From a candidate division NC10 bacterium CSP1-5 (GTDB lineage: Bacteria; Methylomirabilota; Methylomirabilia; Methylomirabilales; CSP1-5): a DNA stretch of 33,403 bases. The stretch is from assembly GCA_001443495.1 (NCBI GenBank), contig LDXR01000025.1, forward strand, positions 1 to 33,403, written 5' to 3'. The position numbers and the translations under genes were made by a program. The notes beneath the pieces were generated by a model. It saw nothing but the letters and a program-made list of their open reading frames with translations. It had not been told where the DNA came from and searched no databases. Below are positions 19,841 to 33,056 of the stretch, in pieces (position 1 is the stretch's first letter; every line of letters begins with the position of its first letter).

Positions 19841-20269
19841 GTGAGGATCGCCTTTGAGACCATTTCGGTCAAGACGAAGGAGCCGCTCCAGCTCTTGGAC
19901 ATCACCCAGACGGTCCGGGACTTCCTGGGCAAGCACGCGATTCGCAATGGGGTCTTGCTCCTGAACACCCTGCACACCACTGCTGTCCTGTTCACCAATG
20001 AGTTTCAGGCTGCCCTCATCGAGGACATGAAAGAGCTCCTCGCCCACCTCATTGAGGATCAGCGGTACTATCGGCACAATGATCCCCAGCACTCTGACTG
20101 TACGCGGGCGAACGCCAGCTCCCACCTGCGGGCCATGTTGATGTCTCGGACGCTGGCCCTTCCCGTTCGGGCAGGAGAGATGGTCCTCGGTCGCTGGCAG
20201 AGCATCATCTTTGCGGAGCTCGATGGTCCCCAGGAGCGAAGCATTCAGTTCCAGATCCTCGGCGAGTAG
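19841..20269 (+). CDS. yjbQ: YjbQ / UPF0047 family protein
   Basis: A 142-residue single-domain protein of the YjbQ family. Typical are NTLHTTAVLFTNEFQ, DMKELLAHLIED, HNDPQHSDCTRANASSHL and LGRWQSIIFAELDGP. The conserved His, Asp and Glu residues form the family's putative metal site. Low thiamin phosphate synthase activity has been reported for some members, but the physiological role is unsettled. The start is GTG 19841 with GGAGG five bases upstream. It follows the CopD-like gene and is followed by a heptamer repeat. Confidence 0.93.
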   Translation: MRIAFETISVKTKEPLQLLDITQTVRDFLGKHAIRNGVLLLNTLHTTAVLFTNEFQAALIEDMKELLAHLIEDQRYYRHNDPQHSDCTRANASSHLRAMLMSRTLALPVRAGEMVLGRWQSIIFAELDGPQERSIQFQILGE

Positions 20270-20366: not shown

Positions 20367-21530
20367 GTGGAAGCGCTATTCGCCCGTACGGGGCTGGCTG
20401 ATCTCTATGAGAAGGTCGTCCAGGGCGAGCGCCTGAGCTACGACGACGGTCTGCGTCTCTACCGGACCCCAGAGCTGACCGCGGTGGGTGCGCTGGCCAA
20501 TGTGGTCCGGGAGCGCATGAACGGGGATGCCACCTACTACGTCCGCAACCTCCACATCAACTACACCAACATCTGCAACAAGCTGTGCAAATTCTGCTCC
20601 TTCTACGCCCCGCCCGGCGACCCCAGGGGCTACGTGCTCACGCCAGACGATATCGTCGCCCGTCTCGCGGAACATCGCGATCACGTCATCCGCGAGATCC
20701 ATATGGTCGCGGGGATCAACCCGAAACTCCCTTATCAGTACTATCTGGACATCCTCCGGTCGGTCCGCGCGGCCCGGCCCGAAGCGCAGATCAAGGCCTT
20801 TACCATGATTGAGCTGGCCCAGATCGCCCGGGCGGCGAAAAAGCCGCTGGGGGACGTTCTCGAGGATCTCAAGGGCGCGGGTCTTGCCTGCGTTCCCGGG
20901 GGCGGGGCCGAGGTCTTCAGTGACCGGGTGCATGAGGAGCTCTTTCGCGCCAAGCTGGATAACGAGGGATGGTTCCAGGTGGCCCGCGAGGTCCACCGGG
21001 CAGGGCTCAGGTCGAACGCCACCATGCTCTACGGTCACATCGAGACGGTCGAGGAGAAGGTCAAGCATCTCCTCCACATCCGGGAGCTCCAGGACGAGAC
21101 GAAAGGGTTTCAGTGCTTCGTGCCCTTGGCCTTCGACCCCGCCCGGACCGAGCTCGAGCATATTCCGGTGACCACGGGGCAGCAGAATCTGCGGGAGATC
21201 GCCATCGCCCGCCTGCTCCTGGATAACTTCCCCCACATCAAGGCCTTCTGGATCATGATCACGCCACAGATCGCCCAGCTGGCCCTCTGGTACGGGGCGG
21301 ATGACCTGGACGGGACCGTCAGTCATTACGAGATCACGCACGCCCTGGGAACCGCCTCTCATCACCAGGCCTTGAGCCATCAGGAGCTTCTGGATCTGAT
21401 CAGCGAAGCGGGTCGGGTCCCGGTCGAACGCGATGCGCTCTACAACGTGATACCGGAGCAGTTAGCTGTCGGCGGTCAGCAGTCGGCGAAGGGTTCCGTG
21501 AGCCTGCGGGTGTTGTCGTCGAGCAGTTGA
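20367..21530 (+). CDS. mqnE: Aminodeoxyfutalosine synthase (radical SAM)
   Basis: A 387-residue radical SAM enzyme of the futalosine menaquinone pathway; it joins a carboxyvinyl-oxybenzoate unit to SAM-derived adenosine to give aminofutalosine. The cluster cysteines are Cys70, Cys74 and Cys77 (CNKLCKFCSFYA) after NLHINYTNI. HMVAGINPKLPYQYYLD and VPGGGAEVFSDRV are typical of MqnE. GTG 20367 has GGAGG upstream. After the expected end (ALYNVIPEQ) there is an unusual tail of about 25 residues, the first part of it encoded by a heptamer repeat at 21464-21491. mqnC follows 26 bases later. Together the two genes indicate a menaquinone-based respiratory chain, into which the D-2-hydroxyacid dehydrogenase and Complex I could feed. 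Confidence 0.95.
   Translation: MEALFARTGLADLYEKVVQGERLSYDDGLRLYRTPELTAVGALANVVRERMNGDATYYVRNLHINYTNICNKLCKFCSFYAPPGDPRGYVLTPDDIVARLAEHRDHVIREIHMVAGINPKLPYQYYLDILRSVRAARPEAQIKAFTMIELAQIARAAKKPLGDVLEDLKGAGLACVPGGGAEVFSDRVHEELFRAKLDNEGWFQVAREVHRAGLRSNATMLYGHIETVEEKVKHLLHIRELQDETKGFQCFVPLAFDPARTELEHIPVTTGQQNLREIAIARLLLDNFPHIKAFWIMITPQIAQLALWYGADDLDGTVSHYEITHALGTASHHQALSHQELLDLISEAGRVPVERDALYNVIPEQLAVGGQQSAKGSVSLRVLSSSS
21464..21491. repeat. Heptamer repeat inside the mqnE 3' end
   Basis: AGCTGTC, GGCGGTC, AGCAGTC and GGCGAAG stand in 7-base register and encode part of the non-conserved MqnE tail. Confidence 0.6.
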
Positions 21531-21556: not shown

Positions 21557-22633
21557 ATGTCAGGGAACGGGGCCAGTCGCTTGCAAGAGATTGAGGCGAA
21601 GGTGCTGGCCGAAGGGCGGCTGAGCGGCGAGGATGGCCTGGCCCTCCTTCAGGTGACCAACCTCCCGTGGTTAGGCTTCCTCGCCGATACGGTGCGGCGA
21701 CGGAAGCGTCCGGAACGGGAGGTGACGTATGTCGTGGGCCGCATCATCAACTATACCAATGTCTGCTGGGTGAAATGCACCTTCTGCGCCTTTTACCGCC
21801 TGCCCGGCCACCAGGAGGGCTACGTCCTCTCGCGAGAGGAGATCTTCCAGAAGATCCAAGACGCCGTTGACCACGGCGGCACCGAGGTCCTGTTCCAGGG
21901 GGGCCTGAACCCGGCGCTGAAGATCGACTACTTCGAAGAGATCTTCCGGGCCATCAGAAGGCGCTTCCCCGTTCATATCCACGGCCTCTCACCCGCGGAG
22001 CTCATCTATCTGGCCAAGATTTCGCGGCTTTCGCTCAGAGAAACCCTCCTGCGACTGAAGTCGGCGGGGCTCGGCACCATCCCGGGAGGGGGAGCGGAGA
22101 TCCTGGTGGACGATGTCCGGCAGGCCATCTCCCCTTTAAAGGACACGGTGGAAGAATGGCTCGACTGCATGCGGACGGCCCATCAGGTCGGGATCCCGTC
22201 GAGCGCCACCATGATGTTCGGGTCGGTGGAGACGGCGGCGCAGCGCGTGGAGCATCTCCTCCGGCTCCGGTCCCTTCAAGATGAAACAGGCGGGTTCACC
22301 GCCTTCGTGGCCTGGAACTTCCAGCCCGATGGGACCGACCTGAAGGGGAAGCGGGCCTCGGCCTTCGATTATCTGCGGACCGTGGCCGTGGCCAGGCTGA
22401 TGCTCGACAATTTTGGCAATATCCAGGCGTCGTGGCTGACCCAGGGGCCGAAGGTGGCTCAAATCGCCCTCCACTATGGGGTGAACGACCTGGGCAGCAC
22501 CATCTTCGAGGAGCGCGTGGTCTCCGCCGGGGGGACCAAATTCATGGCCTCTCGGGAGGAGATTGAACGAGTCATTGCGGACGCTGGCTATACCCCCCGC
22601 GTCCGGAATACACGGTACGAGATCCTGAGATAA
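21557..22633 (+). CDS. mqnC: Cyclic dehypoxanthinyl futalosine synthase (radical SAM)
   Basis: A 358-residue radical SAM enzyme that cyclises dehypoxanthinyl futalosine in menaquinone synthesis. The cluster cysteines are Cys70, Cys74 and Cys77 (CWVKCTFCAFYR) after IINYTNV, in the same positions as in MqnE. EVLFQGGLNPALKIDYFEE, HGLSPAELIYLA and IPGGGAEIL are MqnC motifs. The ATG at 21557 follows GAGGTGA. MqnA, B and D are not in the window. The protein is full length with no anomalies. Confidence 0.95.
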   Translation: MSGNGASRLQEIEAKVLAEGRLSGEDGLALLQVTNLPWLGFLADTVRRRKRPEREVTYVVGRIINYTNVCWVKCTFCAFYRLPGHQEGYVLSREEIFQKIQDAVDHGGTEVLFQGGLNPALKIDYFEEIFRAIRRRFPVHIHGLSPAELIYLAKISRLSLRETLLRLKSAGLGTIPGGGAEILVDDVRQAISPLKDTVEEWLDCMRTAHQVGIPSSATMMFGSVETAAQRVEHLLRLRSLQDETGGFTAFVAWNFQPDGTDLKGKRASAFDYLRTVAVARLMLDNFGNIQASWLTQGPKVAQIALHYGVNDLGSTIFEERVVSAGGTKFMASREEIERVIADAGYTPRVRNTRYEILR

Positions 22634-22684: not shown

Positions 22685-24976
22685 ATGGGCACCACACTGG
22701 CCGTCACGGACCTTTCTCGCGAGCCTTCGAGCTCGGCGTGTGTCGATCTCCTGCCCGAGGCCCGAAGGTACAGAACATTCCACGTAGTCCTCGTCAAGCC
22801 CTCGAAGTACGACGACGACGGGTATGTGATTCGGTTTTGGAAGGGGGTGCTCCCGAGTAACACGCTCAACGTCTTGCGCGGGCTGACTGAAGACGTCAAG
22901 CAACGGCGGGTCTTCGGGGATATGGATATCCAGGTGGATGCCTTTGACGAGACGGCCGAAAAGATCCCCGTCAAAAGGATCATCCGTTGGAGTCGTCGCC
23001 CCGACACCAAGCTGATCGTGTGCCTGGTCGGCGTGCAGACGAACCAGTTTCCGCGGGCCCTCGAGCTGGGACGGAAGTTCCGGGCTCACGGGATCGACGT
23101 GGTCATCGGTGGGTTCCATACCAGTGGCACCGTCAACATGTTGAGTTCCGATGAACCGGACATCCAGGAGCTTTTCCGAGAATCCATCATTGTCGTGTCG
23201 GGCGAGGTAGAGGGGAAATGGGAGGGCATCCTCGCAGACATCCTCAACGGACAGCCCAAGCCGCTCTACTCCTTTGCCCAGGATCTCAAGAGTCTCGTGG
23301 ACATCGAGAAGGCGCCGTGGCCTGTGATCAGCCCGAAATCGATGCAGCACTTCGCGCGGACGACCTTCGGGACCGTGGACACCTCCCGGGGCTGCCCGTT
23401 CGCCTGCACCTTCTGCACCATCATCAACGTGCAGGGACGAAAGATGCGGGAGCGAAGCCCCGAAGAGATCGCGGAGCTGCTCCGGCACAATTATCGCAAG
23501 CACGACATCGACTTCTACTTTTTCACCGACGACAACTTTGCCCGGAAGAAACTGTGGCGCGAGACCTTCGAGGCCCTGATCCGGCTCCGTCAGGAAGGCC
23601 TCAAGATCACCTTCATGATGCAGGTGGACCTGGCGCGCAAGCCGAAGGACTTTGTCCGCCTGGCTGCTGAGGCCGGGTGCACCCAGGTTTTTATCGGCAT
23701 GGAGAGCGTCAATCCGGAAAACCTGAAGGCCGAGGGCAAGGGGCAGAACAAGGTCGAGGAGTACGTGGACATCATCCGCGAGTGGCACGAAGCGAAGGTA
23801 GTAGTTCATGTCGGATACATCATCGGCCTGCCCTTTGATACCAAGGAGCAGCTTCCCCAGGACATCCAGTATCTGACGGATATGATCCAGCCCGACGTCG
23901 CGTCGTTCTTTATGCTGACGCCGTTGCCGGGATCGCACGATCATCTGGAAATGAAGAAGCGGGGCGAGTGGATGGATCCGGATTTCAACAAGCGGGATTC
24001 TTTTCATGCGACGGTCCATCATCCGCATATGACGGCCGAGGAATGGACCGAGGCTTACGAGAACGCGTGGAAAGCCTTTTTCAGCCAGGAGAATATCACG
24101 AGGATCCTCTCCCGGTGGAGCCATGACCCGACCACCTACTGGAACCTGATGATCAACCTGATCTGGTACAAGAACGCGTCCCTGATCGAGAAGCAGCACC
24201 CGATGGTCGCCGGCTTTTTCCGTCTGAAAGAGCGGCGGTCCCGCAGACCCGGATTCGCCATCGATCCGTTGCCCATCCACCTCTGGAAGCGAACGAAGGA
24301 GGTGTTCCGTCTCTTCGTGTCGTGGGCCCGCTTTCTGAAGGAGATGGAGGAGATCTGGCTGCAGACGCGTCCGCGAAGTGACGCGGAAAAACGTTTTTCC
24401 GGGGAGATTCAACGCATTCAAGGAGAGATATGGCAAGCGTTGCGGATCGCGGAATGGCACAAGGCGTACGCCAATGCCAAGGCGGCCCTGCCGGCCAAGG
24501 CCAGGGCGTTGCTCGATCCGTTTGATGATCTTGCCTCGAAGATCCTGATCAGTCGCAAGGATCTGGATGCCTTCCTGCACAAATGGGGGGGTCTCCAGGC
24601 GCGGATCCTCAAGCTCCGTCGGCACCTCGTAACGGAAGATGGGCCGGCGAGATGGCTGGACCACCTGTACGATGTGCACACACAAGCCTGGCAGGGCCTG
24701 AACCTTCAGGAGTGGCGGGAGGCCTACTCGAGCTTCAGGGAGAAACCTCCGTCAGGGGTCAAGCTCCGGTATGTCAAGTTCGATCCCTTGAAGAACCAGC
24801 TCGTCTACTCCCGGCAGGACTTGCAAAGAGTATGGGCGAGGACTCGGGAGCACCTCCGCGGTTGGCGATTCTGGAATATCCGCCCGTGGCTACTCACGGT
24901 CGCGTTCTTCAAGGATCTGTTCCTGACGACGTCTTTTGCCCGGAGGGCCCTCACCTCTTTTCACCGTTACCAGTAA
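22685..24976 (+). CDS. B12-binding-type radical SAM protein with long C-terminal extension
   Basis: A 763-residue protein. Residues about 30-210 have the layout of a cobalamin-binding Rossmann domain (LIVCLVGVQTNQFPRALELG, VVIGGFHTSGT). The radical SAM core follows with Cys237, Cys241 and Cys244 (SRGCPFACTFCTI), FFTDDNFARKK and FIGMESVNPENLK. After about residue 500 comes a region of some 260 residues rich in Trp, Arg and Lys that I do not recognise. It looks helical and ends with a basic, aromatic segment (WLLTVAFFKDLFLTTSF) that could touch the membrane. A strong GGAGG precedes the ATG. It lies 51 bases after mqnC. Family members are often methyltransferases or ring-modifying enzymes; the substrate here is unknown, and a link to quinones or other lipids is only suggested by context. 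Confidence 0.82.
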   Translation: MGTTLAVTDLSREPSSSACVDLLPEARRYRTFHVVLVKPSKYDDDGYVIRFWKGVLPSNTLNVLRGLTEDVKQRRVFGDMDIQVDAFDETAEKIPVKRIIRWSRRPDTKLIVCLVGVQTNQFPRALELGRKFRAHGIDVVIGGFHTSGTVNMLSSDEPDIQELFRESIIVVSGEVEGKWEGILADILNGQPKPLYSFAQDLKSLVDIEKAPWPVISPKSMQHFARTTFGTVDTSRGCPFACTFCTIINVQGRKMRERSPEEIAELLRHNYRKHDIDFYFFTDDNFARKKLWRETFEALIRLRQEGLKITFMMQVDLARKPKDFVRLAAEAGCTQVFIGMESVNPENLKAEGKGQNKVEEYVDIIREWHEAKVVVHVGYIIGLPFDTKEQLPQDIQYLTDMIQPDVASFFMLTPLPGSHDHLEMKKRGEWMDPDFNKRDSFHATVHHPHMTAEEWTEAYENAWKAFFSQENITRILSRWSHDPTTYWNLMINLIWYKNASLIEKQHPMVAGFFRLKERRSRRPGFAIDPLPIHLWKRTKEVFRLFVSWARFLKEMEEIWLQTRPRSDAEKRFSGEIQRIQGEIWQALRIAEWHKAYANAKAALPAKARALLDPFDDLASKILISRKDLDAFLHKWGGLQARILKLRRHLVTEDGPARWLDHLYDVHTQAWQGLNLQEWREAYSSFREKPPSGVKLRYVKFDPLKNQLVYSRQDLQRVWARTREHLRGWRFWNIRPWLLTVAFFKDLFLTTSFARRALTSFHRYQ

Positions 24977-25031
24977 TCGTCTCCCAGCATGCCCTCCAGA
25001 TCCGTCGAGGTGCCCCGCGGGGTGGCGGTTG

Positions 25032-25847
25032 ATGGGATGTGAGGTCGTGGATGCGGCGGGGAGGCGCGTGCGTCTCCCCGCTTTGCCTTCCCGCATCATC
25101 TCCCTTGTCCCGAGCATCACCGAGACCCTCTTCGCGTTGGGCCTCGAGGAGCGTCTCGTCGCTGTGACCCGTTTCTGCACCGAGCCATCGGCTGGCGTGG
25201 CGGCCAAGGCGAGGGTCGGTGGACAGAAGGATCCAGATCTCAAGAAGATTCAATCCCTCCAGCCTGACCTGGTTATCGCCAATATGGAGGAGAATCGCCG
25301 TGAGGACGTTGACGCCTTGGACGCGATGGCGATTGCCGTCTACACGACGTACCCCCGGACGGTGGAGCAGGGCATCGCGATGGTCGGTGAGCTCGGCTCC
25401 CTGACGGGAACCGAGGGGCGGGCCAGCGCCATCGCGGCCTCCCTGGAGGCGGTCTACCGGGACGTCTCGCAGGAGGTCAGCGGGCAAGGACGGCTGCGGG
25501 TCTTCTGTCCCATCTGGCGCAGGCCGTACATGTCTATTAATCAAGATACGTACATCCACGACGTCCTCCGGACATGCGGTGGGGAGAACATCTTTGCCGC
25601 CAGTGGCCAGCGCTACCCCAAGATCTCGTTGGCGGAGGTCGCGGATCTCAAGCCCGAGATCATCCTCCTCCCCGATGAGCCGTACCCCTTCCATCCGAGA
25701 CACCTCGCGGATCTCCAGCCCTTCGAGGGATTCATCCCGGCCCTGGCGACCGGCCGTGTCCACTTCGTCGACGGCAAACTCCTCTCCTGGTACGGCCCCA
25801 GAATCGGGGAGAGCCTTCGCACGCTTCGGGCGCTCTTCCTTGGTTAG
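25032..25847 (+). CDS. BtuF-like helical-backbone metal/cobalamin-binding protein without signal peptide
   Basis: A 271-residue protein of the periplasmic-binding-protein type seen in BtuF and Fe-siderophore receptors: PSRIISLVPSITETLFALGLEERLV, then KIQSLQPDLVIAN, AEVADLKPEIILLPDEPYPF and a C-terminal WYGPRIGESLRTL. The protein starts directly at the domain (MGCEVVDAAGRRVRLP), and neither this start nor an upstream in-frame one at 24936 gives a signal peptide or lipobox. No BtuC- or BtuD-type permease genes are nearby. Either the protein works in the cytoplasm or its export signal was lost. Its position next to a B12-type radical SAM gene fits a cobalamin-related role, by inference only. Confidence 0.8.
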   Translation: MGCEVVDAAGRRVRLPALPSRIISLVPSITETLFALGLEERLVAVTRFCTEPSAGVAAKARVGGQKDPDLKKIQSLQPDLVIANMEENRREDVDALDAMAIAVYTTYPRTVEQGIAMVGELGSLTGTEGRASAIAASLEAVYRDVSQEVSGQGRLRVFCPIWRRPYMSINQDTYIHDVLRTCGGENIFAASGQRYPKISLAEVADLKPEIILLPDEPYPFHPRHLADLQPFEGFIPALATGRVHFVDGKLLSWYGPRIGESLRTLRALFLG

Positions 25848-25854
25848 GCCTGCA

Positions 25855-26394
25855 ATGATCACCCCCGAGCCAGAGTTCGAGCGGCTGGTCCTCGAGCATC
25901 TCGACGGCCTCTATAATCTCGCTCGGTGGCTGACCCGGAACATGGACGAGGCGCAGGACCTGGTCCAGGAGACGGCGCTCAAGGCCCTGAAGGCCCGAGA
26001 TCAGTTTCGGGGGGGAACAACCCTGACGGCCTGGCTGTATAGAATATTGAGGAATAGCTTCATCGACAGGTACTGGAAGCGGCAACGGGAGCCTTCGGGT
26101 CAGGACGACGACCTCCCCGGGGTTCTGAGAGAACTGGAGCAGGCGCTTGAGGAGACCGAGATCGAGCACCTCCGGCCTCTGGTGGCGGCAGACATCAACC
26201 GGGCCCTGAAGGCCCTTCCGGAGCAGTGGCGGACCACCGTCCTGCTGGCGGAGGTGGAGGGGCTCACCTGGGAGGAGGTCGCCGAGGTCATGGACTGCCC
26301 GTTGGGCACGGTTCAGTCTCGCATATTCCGGGCCCGCAGAGTGCTGCGACAGCTCCTGAAGGACTACGCGCCCGAAGACAAGGGTGGGGAATAG
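25855..26394 (+). CDS. ECF (RpoE-type) RNA polymerase sigma factor
   Basis: A 179-residue group IV sigma factor. Region 2 (about 8-72: LDGLYNLARWLTRNMDEAQD, then TLTAWLYRILRNSFIDRYW) binds core polymerase and the -10 box. Region 4 (about 120-170: LPEQWRTTVLLAEVEGLTWEE, TVQSRIFRARRVLRQLL) binds the -35 box. It begins seven bases after the BtuF-like gene, and its TAG stop shares one base with the GTG of the anti-sigma gene, a classical arrangement. The signal it responds to is unknown. Longer readings upstream are the shifted frame of the BtuF-like gene. Confidence 0.93.
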   Translation: MITPEPEFERLVLEHLDGLYNLARWLTRNMDEAQDLVQETALKALKARDQFRGGTTLTAWLYRILRNSFIDRYWKRQREPSGQDDDLPGVLRELEQALEETEIEHLRPLVAADINRALKALPEQWRTTVLLAEVEGLTWEEVAEVMDCPLGTVQSRIFRARRVLRQLLKDYAPEDKGGE

Positions 26395-27182
26395 TGGTAA
26401 CCTGTCACACATGTCGAGAGCACATTCCAGGACTCCTTCAGGGGGTCCTCTCTCCGGCCCTGGTCGCCGAGCTGGGGAGTCATCTGGCAGGCTGTGAGGC
26501 CTGTCAGACGGAGTTGGCCGAGGAGCAGGCCCTCTCCCGCCGGCTCCGGGAGGTGGCCCACTACCGATTGTCGGCGGATCTCCGTGCTCAGATAGAAGGG
26601 CAGCTTGAGGGGAAGACCTGGATGGGGATCCCGACCTGGGTCACATGGCGTTGGCTGGCGGCCGCCGCAGTTTTGCTTTTGGCGTTGGCAATTTCACCCC
26701 TGATGCTCATCCGGCGAGACCCTCTCCGTACCTTTATCCCTGAAGCGACACGCAAGCATCGCGAGATGGTGGTGCAGCATGAACTCTTCGCCTTCCCCGA
26801 TGTCGGTCCGGAGGGATCGGCGGAGCTTCCCCGTCTCGTCTCGGAGCAGCTTGGCCTTCCTGTTACATCCCTTTTCTTGGGCGATTCCGATCTGGTTTTT
26901 ATGGGTGCCCGCCCGCTGGTCGCGGGGGACCGAAAAGGGGTCGTCATCGTCTATGCCGATCACTATGGGTGGGTGAGCTCTCTCCAGTGTGTCTCTGCCC
27001 CAGAGATCGAGGTTCCCAAGAGGAACCGGCTGCAGGTTGAAGCCTTCCACCCCTACCACACCCAGGTCGATTCTCTCCAGGTCTTGGTCTGGAAGCAGGA
27101 GGAGATGGCCTGTTTCCTGGTGGCCCAGGCGAGTGACCAGGAGCTGGCTGATCTCTTTCTGAAGGTCCGCAGAGGCATGTAG
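26394..27182 (+). CDS. Membrane anti-sigma factor with zinc-finger (ZAS) domain
   Basis: A 262-residue protein. The N-terminal zf-HC2 motif has His30, Cys34 and Cys37 (HLAGCEAC) preceded by Cys4/Cys7, which is the fold that holds ECF sigma factors inactive. One membrane span (about 87-106, WLAAAAVLLLALAISPLMLI) is followed by an extracytoplasmic domain of about 155 residues with no motif I recognise. The start is the GTG at 26394, overlapping the sigma stop codon, so the pair is translationally coupled. Release of the sigma factor probably follows a signal sensed by the outer domain or by zinc/thiol oxidation. The helicase gene follows five bases later. Confidence 0.88.
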   Translation: MVTCHTCREHIPGLLQGVLSPALVAELGSHLAGCEACQTELAEEQALSRRLREVAHYRLSADLRAQIEGQLEGKTWMGIPTWVTWRWLAAAAVLLLALAISPLMLIRRDPLRTFIPEATRKHREMVVQHELFAFPDVGPEGSAELPRLVSEQLGLPVTSLFLGDSDLVFMGARPLVAGDRKGVVIVYADHYGWVSSLQCVSAPEIEVPKRNRLQVEAFHPYHTQVDSLQVLVWKQEEMACFLVAQASDQELADLFLKVRRGM

Positions 27183-29740: not shown

Positions 29741-29762
29741 ACCCGGGAAATGCGTAGAGTTG

Positions 29763-29797
29763 AGGCGCCGGAGGTACCCCTGGCGCCTTCTTTTTTG
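29763..29797 (+). terminator. Intrinsic terminator downstream of the TPP riboswitch
   Basis: Stem AGGCGCC (29763-29769) with GGCGCCT (29782-29788), possibly extended inward, followed by TCTTTTTTG. Located 25 bases after the aptamer, it is the probable expression platform: TPP binding would favour this hairpin and end transcription. Confidence 0.8.
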
Positions 29798-29836
29798 AGA
29801 ACGGCGTCTGTTCGCATCTCACTGAAGGGGAGGGCA

Positions 29837-30145
29837 ATGCCTAGGAAGATCAAGGTGGCTCAAGTGAGTGACGTCGCGCCCGGAGAGGGGAAAATCGTTC
29901 AGGCAGATGGCGAGCAGATCGCGCTGTTTAACGTGGGTGGGAGGTTTTACGCGATCCACAACACCTGTCTCCACCGGGGCGGCCCGCTCGGGGAGGGTGA
30001 GTTGGACGAAACCACCGTCACCTGTCCCTGGCACGGCTGGCAGTACGATGTGGCCACCGGGGCCAATGTCAGGAACCCGGCGGTCAAGGTCGCGAGCTTC
30101 AACGTGAAGGTCGAGGGGGCGGATGTCCTCGTCGAGCTCCCGTAG
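29837..30145 (+). CDS. Rieske-type [2Fe-2S] ferredoxin
   Basis: A 102-residue soluble Rieske protein. The cluster ligands are Cys44, His46 (CLHRGG) and Cys63, His66 (CPWHGWQYD). It resembles the small ferredoxin partners of ring-hydroxylating dioxygenases and NirD-like proteins. The ATG at 29837 has GGGGAGGG upstream; a frame from 29750 would run through the terminator and is rejected. The gene lies between a TPP riboswitch/terminator and thiC, so its expression should drop when thiamin is present. No oxygenase gene is nearby. A role as electron donor in thiamin synthesis, for example to the Fe-S enzyme ThiC, is an inference. Confidence 0.9.
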   Translation: MPRKIKVAQVSDVAPGEGKIVQADGEQIALFNVGGRFYAIHNTCLHRGGPLGEGELDETTVTCPWHGWQYDVATGANVRNPAVKVASFNVKVEGADVLVELP

Positions 30146-30259
30146 CGTGACGCGGGCTCCCGGTCGGACCGCGATGAGAGTCCGAGGCATCCACGTGGAC
30201 ATCTCTCCGTGGCCCGCGTACGCCGTGCCACGCCCGAGAGATGCCTTTCCGAGGGGTGA

Positions 30260-32104
<1,845 letters not shown>

Positions 32105-32193
32105 AAAGTGGCGGCGAAATCTACCAGAAAGCTTGATCGAGACCACGAATCCCCCCTCCATTCCTGCTCGATGCGCGGACGAGAGCTTGCTCC

Positions 32194-32256
32194 ATGGGGC
32201 AGACCCTGCCGGTCGAGGCCATGGAGGAGAAACCGATGAAGATCCAGGCGAATTAG
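32194..32256 (+). other. 20-codon frame ending like a truncated ThiS start
   Basis: After thiC a short frame encodes MGQTLPVEAMEEKPMKIQAN. Its inner ATG (32236) has GGAGGAG eight bases upstream and encodes MKIQAN, the way many ThiS sulfur-carrier proteins begin, then a stop. It may be a thiS remnant or a leader peptide, or chance. No other reading is better supported. Confidence 0.2.
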
Positions 32257-32261
32257 GGGCG

Positions 32262-33056
32262 ATGGACGATCTCGGCCGGGCCTTCGTCTCTTTCCTTCAC
32301 CAGGTCGCGGTTGGCGGCATGGTGGCGCTGCTCTTGATCCCCTTTGAGGCCATCAGCCGCCAGTTCTTTCGGATCGCTGGTCTGATCCTCCTCACGGTAG
32401 AAGGACTGGCCCTCTGGCGGACCGGAGGAGAGGGATGGATTCAGGGGTGGTCCGGTGCCCTCTTTGTCGCGCTCCTACTGGCGTTCACCGTGATTTGGTT
32501 CGTCCCCGGTACTCCGGGCGCGACGGTCCTGCATCGCTTCGGCATTGTTGCGGGGGTATTTCTCCTGGTGGCCGATGTCCTGCGCTATCCGATTGCCGGG
32601 GCGGGGCCGTTGGGGATCGTCATGGGCGCGACTAATGCGCTCACCTCGGCCCTCCTGCTCGGGACGGCGCTGGTTGGGCTTCTCCTCGGGCACCGATATC
32701 TGAACGAACCGCATCTGCCCGTTTCTCTGATCAAGCGCCTCTCCGATGTCTTCTGTATGGTTATTCTACTCCAGGGGGCCCTGCCGGCGCTCTTCACGCT
32801 CCTGGTCTATAGTTTTGGGGGGTCAAACTTGGTGGGGGAGTGGTTGCGCCTCTTGGGCGAGCACTGGGCCCTCCTCTTTGGCCGGATGATCGTCGGGATC
32901 GGCGCCTCCTTAGGGGTTGCGCTGGTGATCTTGAATTGTTTACGCCTCCCCAACGTCCAGGCGGCCACCGGTTTTTATTACGTAGCAGTCATCACGGTTT
33001 TTCTTGGCGAATTTCTGGGCCGCTACCTCCGCGCATTCGCATCACTTCCCTTTTAG
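32262..33056 (+). CDS. Unknown multi-span membrane protein
   Basis: A 264-residue, strongly hydrophobic protein with seven to eight predicted membrane spans. Polar landmarks include VLHRFGIVAG, LGHRYLNEPHLPVSLIKRL and FGRMIVGIGASLG. The histidines in HRFG and GHRYLNEPH sit at helix ends and could bind a cofactor or quinone, which I cannot confirm. ATG 32262 follows AGGGG; the longer frame from 32019 overlaps thiC and is rejected. It lies 125 bases after the restored thiC end and could be cotranscribed. I do not recognise the family. An octamer inverted repeat begins right after its stop. Confidence 0.75.
   Translation: MDDLGRAFVSFLHQVAVGGMVALLLIPFEAISRQFFRIAGLILLTVEGLALWRTGGEGWIQGWSGALFVALLLAFTVIWFVPGTPGATVLHRFGIVAGVFLLVADVLRYPIAGAGPLGIVMGATNALTSALLLGTALVGLLLGHRYLNEPHLPVSLIKRLSDVFCMVILLQGALPALFTLLVYSFGGSNLVGEWLRLLGEHWALLFGRMIVGIGASLGVALVILNCLRLPNVQAATGFYYVAVITVFLGEFLGRYLRAFASLPF

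Follow-up and report, generated by a model that had tools for sequence, protein, structure and literature searches.

A B12-type radical SAM protein with a duplicated helical tail next to menaquinone genes and a btuF-like gene in an NC10 bacterium

BchE and HpnJ are among the few cobalamin radical SAM (rSAM) enzymes which do not methylate (PMC13142503). The known non-methylating enzymes act on hopanoids, porphyrins, nucleotides, peptides and lipids (PMC13142503). The rSAM gene described here is located on a contig of 33,403 bases, which was analyzed at its whole length and is called the window in the following; the genome comprises 2.77 Mb in 40 contigs. It belongs to an NC10 bacterium, a relative of the nitrite-dependent methane oxidisers. 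No paper joining Methylomirabilis, radical SAM and cobalamin was found in the literature searched, and searches for signal-less BtuF and a futalosine link revealed nothing on a pair of rSAM and BtuF by title or abstract.

Gene order and architecture of the radical SAM protein

As predicted originally, the rSAM gene directly follows two menaquinone genes, both of which score above their NCBIfam equivalog cut-offs. The gene order in this part of the window is:

19841-20269, plus strand: YjbQ
20367-21530, plus strand: mqnE (MqnE TIGR03700, 449.4 bits, cut-off 434.55)
21557-22633, plus strand: mqnC (MqnC TIGR03699, 477.4 bits, cut-off 428.1)
22685-24976, plus strand: rSAM, 763 aa (PF04055, orthologues, structure model)
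25032-25847, plus strand: BtuF-like protein, 271 aa, without signal peptide (PF01497, NF038402, survey of N-termini, synteny)

The rSAM gene starts with the ATG at 22685, which is preceded by GAGAGGAGGTAGGGC, and the btuF-like gene follows in the same direction after a gap of 55 bp. Counts of promoters and terminators were no different from those in shuffled sequences. Directly 3' of btuF, from about 25855 on the plus strand, an ECF sigma factor gene was found, followed by a zinc-finger protein which is a probable anti-sigma factor (window 25855-27182). A Rieske-type ferredoxin, ThiC and a protein without family are encoded at 29750-33056 of the window; the Rieske gene and the family-less gene remain close to btuF in another family of the phylum (f3; L163, L165, L166).

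The rSAM gene is real, as judged from its match to PF04055, the CxxxCxxC motif and orthologues with 68-91% identity in most genomes of the order. The PF04055 match covers residues 233-396 (E 3.9e-22, 79.6 bits against a Pfam cut-off of 29.5) and, together with the motif, places the protein in the radical SAM superfamily. The radical SAM core is the sole domain matched by Pfam. The whole-length AlphaFold model, built with a 68-row alignment, reached a pLDDT of 88.5 and a pTM of 0.86. Two features mark the first part of the protein:

22772..23284, plus strand: N-terminal Rossmann domain of the B12-binding type, about residues 30-200 (model, fold matches, invariant columns)
23393..23416, plus strand: CxxxCxxC radical SAM cluster motif (C237, C241, C244), residues 237-244, invariant in the 68-row alignment

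In the model, strands of the Rossmann domain alternate with helices, and G142-G-F-H145 is invariant in the family across the same alignment. By model and Foldseek, the domain precedes the radical SAM core as expected for class B. The best solved folds found by Foldseek are AprD4 (E 4.9e-17), TsrM, TokK, OxsB, MgmA and CysS, which bears out the predicted B12-type architecture. The Pfam B12-binding profile matched neither the whole protein nor the isolated N-terminus, even at E up to 10. The layout is nevertheless supported because Foldseek ranks B12-type rSAMs first, and the missing match weakens the class B assignment only slightly, since this profile overlooks some true members. Among the NCBIfam models, BchE (TIGR02026, 90.7 bits, cut-off 481.35) and HpnJ (TIGR03471, 85 bits, cut-off 577.6) stay far below their cut-offs, and none of the family members tested passed an equivalog cut-off.

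The absent Pfam match and the fold match to AprD4 leave room for an enzyme which does not bind cobalamin. AprD4, the best structural match, works without cobalamin, and a B12-type fold that lost its cofactor is a tentative, rather doubtful explanation for the present protein. Against it stand the invariant GGFH of the Rossmann domain and the likely cobalamin importer encoded in the same genome. Moreover, the classical DxHxxG motif is missing from many true cobalamin rSAMs.

The helical tail and the distribution of the family

A stretch of about 260 residues behind the core had been noted earlier as unassignable. This stretch is real and conserved (46-56% identity in the closest deltaproteobacterial relatives), and it has no assignable match. 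In the model, residues 529-763 (about 235) are almost wholly helical. Searches with the tail returned no Pfam hit above its cut-off, no PDB structure of similar fold at E<=0.001 and nothing from PHROGs. Three candidates were rejected: DUF6956 (E 0.048, under its cut-off), the best Foldseek hit of the tail alone (E 0.88, chance) and PDB chain 9nw3 (TLP1), which matched the tail profile at E 0.006 and was taken as chance. The tail is divided as follows:

24269..24379, plus strand: long helix with the family motif EMEExWLQTR, residues 529-565 (model, alignments)
24380..24628, plus strand: helical repeat copy 1, about residues 566-648 (local alignment, hhalign, profile match at model positions 1-113)
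24629..24883, plus strand: helical repeat copy 2, about residues 649-733 (local alignment, hhalign, profile match at model positions 45-157)
24884..24970, plus strand: moderately hydrophobic terminal helix, residues 734-762 (29 residues; model)

The tail contains a partial tandem duplication. Local alignment of both copies gave a score of 92 (shuffles 25 +- 4.5, 0/2000 as high), and hhalign a probability of 98% (reversed control 1%). Independently, the tail profile matches full-length orthologues twice in overlapping ranges, at model positions of about 1-113 and 45-157, as fits a partial duplication. Outside the rSAM, the tail module was not found in 94 genomes of the phylum. In some relatives hardly any tail is present (proteins of 590-610 aa), in others it consists of one copy (about 650-690 aa), and a third group has longer tails of other kinds; Stappia sediminis (L128) has the short form. 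This sorting leaves out three tails of at least 205 residues outside the clade and those of 165-204 residues. The two-copy group forms one clade (support 100/99) of 7 Methylomirabilota and 8 deltaproteobacterial rows, and one-copy or tail-less relatives occur in many phyla. In two genomes of the same genus (G013, G009), a second rSAM paralogue of 590 aa with about 41% identity and without the helical tail was found (L051:75-1847, L052:6723-8495). It lies near an LpxD-like gene, named by eye.

The original prediction also mentioned a possible membrane-touching end. The terminal helix is moderately hydrophobic; it is not transmembrane, and its hydrophobic moment is indistinguishable from that of shuffles in most members. 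A contact of this helix with the membrane surface is a guess.

In the phylum, matches to the rSAM were identified in 27 of 95 genomes (E<=1e-40). Most of them are orthologues at 68-91% identity belonging to families f1, f2 and f6; in f3, one genome (G014) carries an orthologue fragment at a contig end, and genomes of f7, which belongs to the same class, have none. Beyond the phylum, at least 512 relatives were found in GTDB contigs across many phyla, and none in viral contigs. Compared with family f6, the rSAM mostly shows 68-76% identity and MqnC 55-61%. The deltaproteobacterial orthologues (L060-L067) are 63-71% identical and about as near as those of other Methylomirabilota families, which suggests from sequence similarity that the rSAM moved between phyla. 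Many of the compared genomes are incomplete MAGs, whose gaps could account for single absences but hardly for the whole distribution pattern.

The BtuF-like neighbour and the menaquinone genes

The predicted BtuF fold of the neighbouring protein was confirmed by PF01497 (E 9e-25) and by NF038402 for helical backbone metal receptors (181 bits against a subfamily cut-off of 30). Its mechanical ORF begins with TTG at 24936 within the rSAM gene, and the supported start is the ATG at 25032. The absence of a signal peptide, for which a wrong start would have been the alternative, also holds: in two genomes of the same genus (G010, G013), the aligned start is preceded by a stop at a distance of 4-5 codons. 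No leader-like hydrophobic stretch was seen in close relatives of the protein, and the Methylomirabilota orthologues examined have no leader. The protein has Asn at the position aligned with Trp66, the stacking residue of E. coli BtuF.

The statement that transporter genes are missing is correct for the neighbourhood and wrong for the genome. Contig C10 (G000; L180:9562-14624) encodes a BtuF-like paralogue with about 35% identity and a signal. Behind it lie genes for a FecCD permease and an ABC ATPase, and then a larger ORF which, from its sequence, may encode a TonB-dependent receptor. This is likely the B12 uptake locus of the genome.

Of the 95 genomes of the phylum, 88 encode the BtuF-like protein or its paralogue of about 35% identity. 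Family f7, which lacks the rSAM, commonly has the closer orthologue. For the BtuF loci, genes were called with a codon-scored caller. Linkage to mqnC extends over more families for the btuF-like gene than for the rSAM, and also over more families than the linkage between btuF and the rSAM. In family f4 (G018), btuF directly follows mqnC without an rSAM. In f2, a gene upstream of btuF encodes a protein which was judged RtcB-like by eye (L168:10750-12219 in G001, L170:1543-2991 in G003), and in L168 this gene lies between mqnC and btuF.

The order mqnE-mqnC-rSAM-btuF is conserved in one genus, and among 80 rSAM loci, btuF or mqn genes were nearby only in three same-genus records. In most members of f6, the rSAM is located elsewhere, after aspS-phoH-HD-era-recO-ADH genes (ADH, zinc alcohol dehydrogenase; gene names from our reading of the sequences). 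Clustering of the best rSAM loci revealed no shared neighbourhood beyond local synteny; it used the longest ORFs, which picked wrong frames in GC-rich DNA.

Both proteins had been proposed to form a cytoplasmic pair, in which the signal-less BtuF-like protein would bind cobalamin in the cytosol and load or store it for the adjoining rSAM. We consider this improbable. The signal-less state is real, the two genes are adjacent and co-directional, and a search of genome contexts found the adjacency again in G014, a single genome from a different family. Furthermore, G015-G017 carry a different B12-type rSAM directly upstream of btuF (L164:1347-3440, L165:2463-4556, L166:5245-6843). This f3 protein has 697 aa where complete and about 26% identity to the rSAM of the window; in L164 and L165 it was seen between mqnC and btuF together with a 184-aa protein without known family. 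However, the two partners show a double dissociation. The BtuF-like protein is widespread without the rSAM, for example in f7, and the eight genomes outside the phylum that come closest, whose two-copy rSAMs have about 63-71% identity, contain BtuF-like matches of at best 25-29% or none. The arrangements in f4 and f2 described above and the Asn at the Trp66 position also speak against a functional pair.

A widespread, unnamed cobalamin rSAM family with a membrane-docking helical tail, which would perform an undescribed modification of membrane lipids and be aided in some Methylomirabilota by a cytoplasmic BtuF-like cobalamin carrier, is likewise an unlikely combination. Very unlikely is a modification of menaquinone or a futalosine-pathway intermediate, at which the position behind mqnE-mqnC in the genus had hinted: mqnC is also present in most rSAM-positive genomes of the phylum, but none of the eight closest outside genomes with two-copy rSAMs has an MqnC over cut-off (their matches of about 345-350 bits fall short and look like CofH), the linkage to mqn is local and missing in f2 and f6, G007 has the rSAM without mqnC at E 1e-90, and G015, G017 and G019 have mqnC without an rSAM orthologue.

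Since rSAM, BtuF-like protein and mqnC occur apart, neither a constant partnership nor a role specific to quinones appears likely, and this negative result spares a false lead. The recurrence of B12-type rSAMs beside btuF, together with the rSAM-btuF adjacency in two families, gives a residual hint of a link.

Proposed role and comparison with known systems

The rSAM is fairly probably a stand-alone enzyme of class B that depends on neither the BtuF-like partner nor menaquinone synthesis and belongs to a large, unnamed radical SAM family. Its architecture, the duplication, the distribution of the family and the dissociation from btuF and mqn were established by computation. As expected from family membership, SAM on the [4Fe-4S] cluster (C237/C241/C244) would be cleaved to a 5'-deoxyadenosyl radical, which would abstract a hydrogen of the substrate. 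Cobalamin may sit in the Rossmann domain and take part in a methylation or in a ring formation or rearrangement, as in BchE or OxsB; this use of cobalamin is a guess. The helical tail, enlarged by duplication in the clade of Methylomirabilota and deltaproteobacteria, probably forms a lid over the active site or a docking surface for a bulky substrate. Such a substrate is favoured, at low confidence, because the tail is large, and a lipid-like nature is guessed. The last helix might place the docking at the membrane surface, again a guess, and the adjacency to btuF and mqn would be a local arrangement. The occurrence in many phyla and the strong conservation suggest a shared, unrecognised reaction, for which the defined tail domain offers a handle to name and test the family.

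Among known systems, BchE and HpnJ share the B12-type radical SAM core and give the best NCBIfam scores of the rSAM. In contrast to the window protein, their match spans the core only, and they have no counterpart of its C-terminal region. AprD4 (PDB 6fd2) is the best fold match, with a TM-score of 0.72 by target length and 18-19% identity, but it consists of 454 residues without a comparable helical tail and acts on a sugar (paromamine). The BtuF-like protein shares the PF01497 fold with BtuF, and PDB BtuF entries match it at E 1e-15 to 1e-19. It differs from periplasmic BtuF by its lack of an export signal and by not adjoining BtuC/BtuD, as permease and ATPase sit with the C10 copy; its score of 91.3 stays below the PRK03379 equivalog cut-off of 234, and it carries Asn in place of the aligned Trp66.
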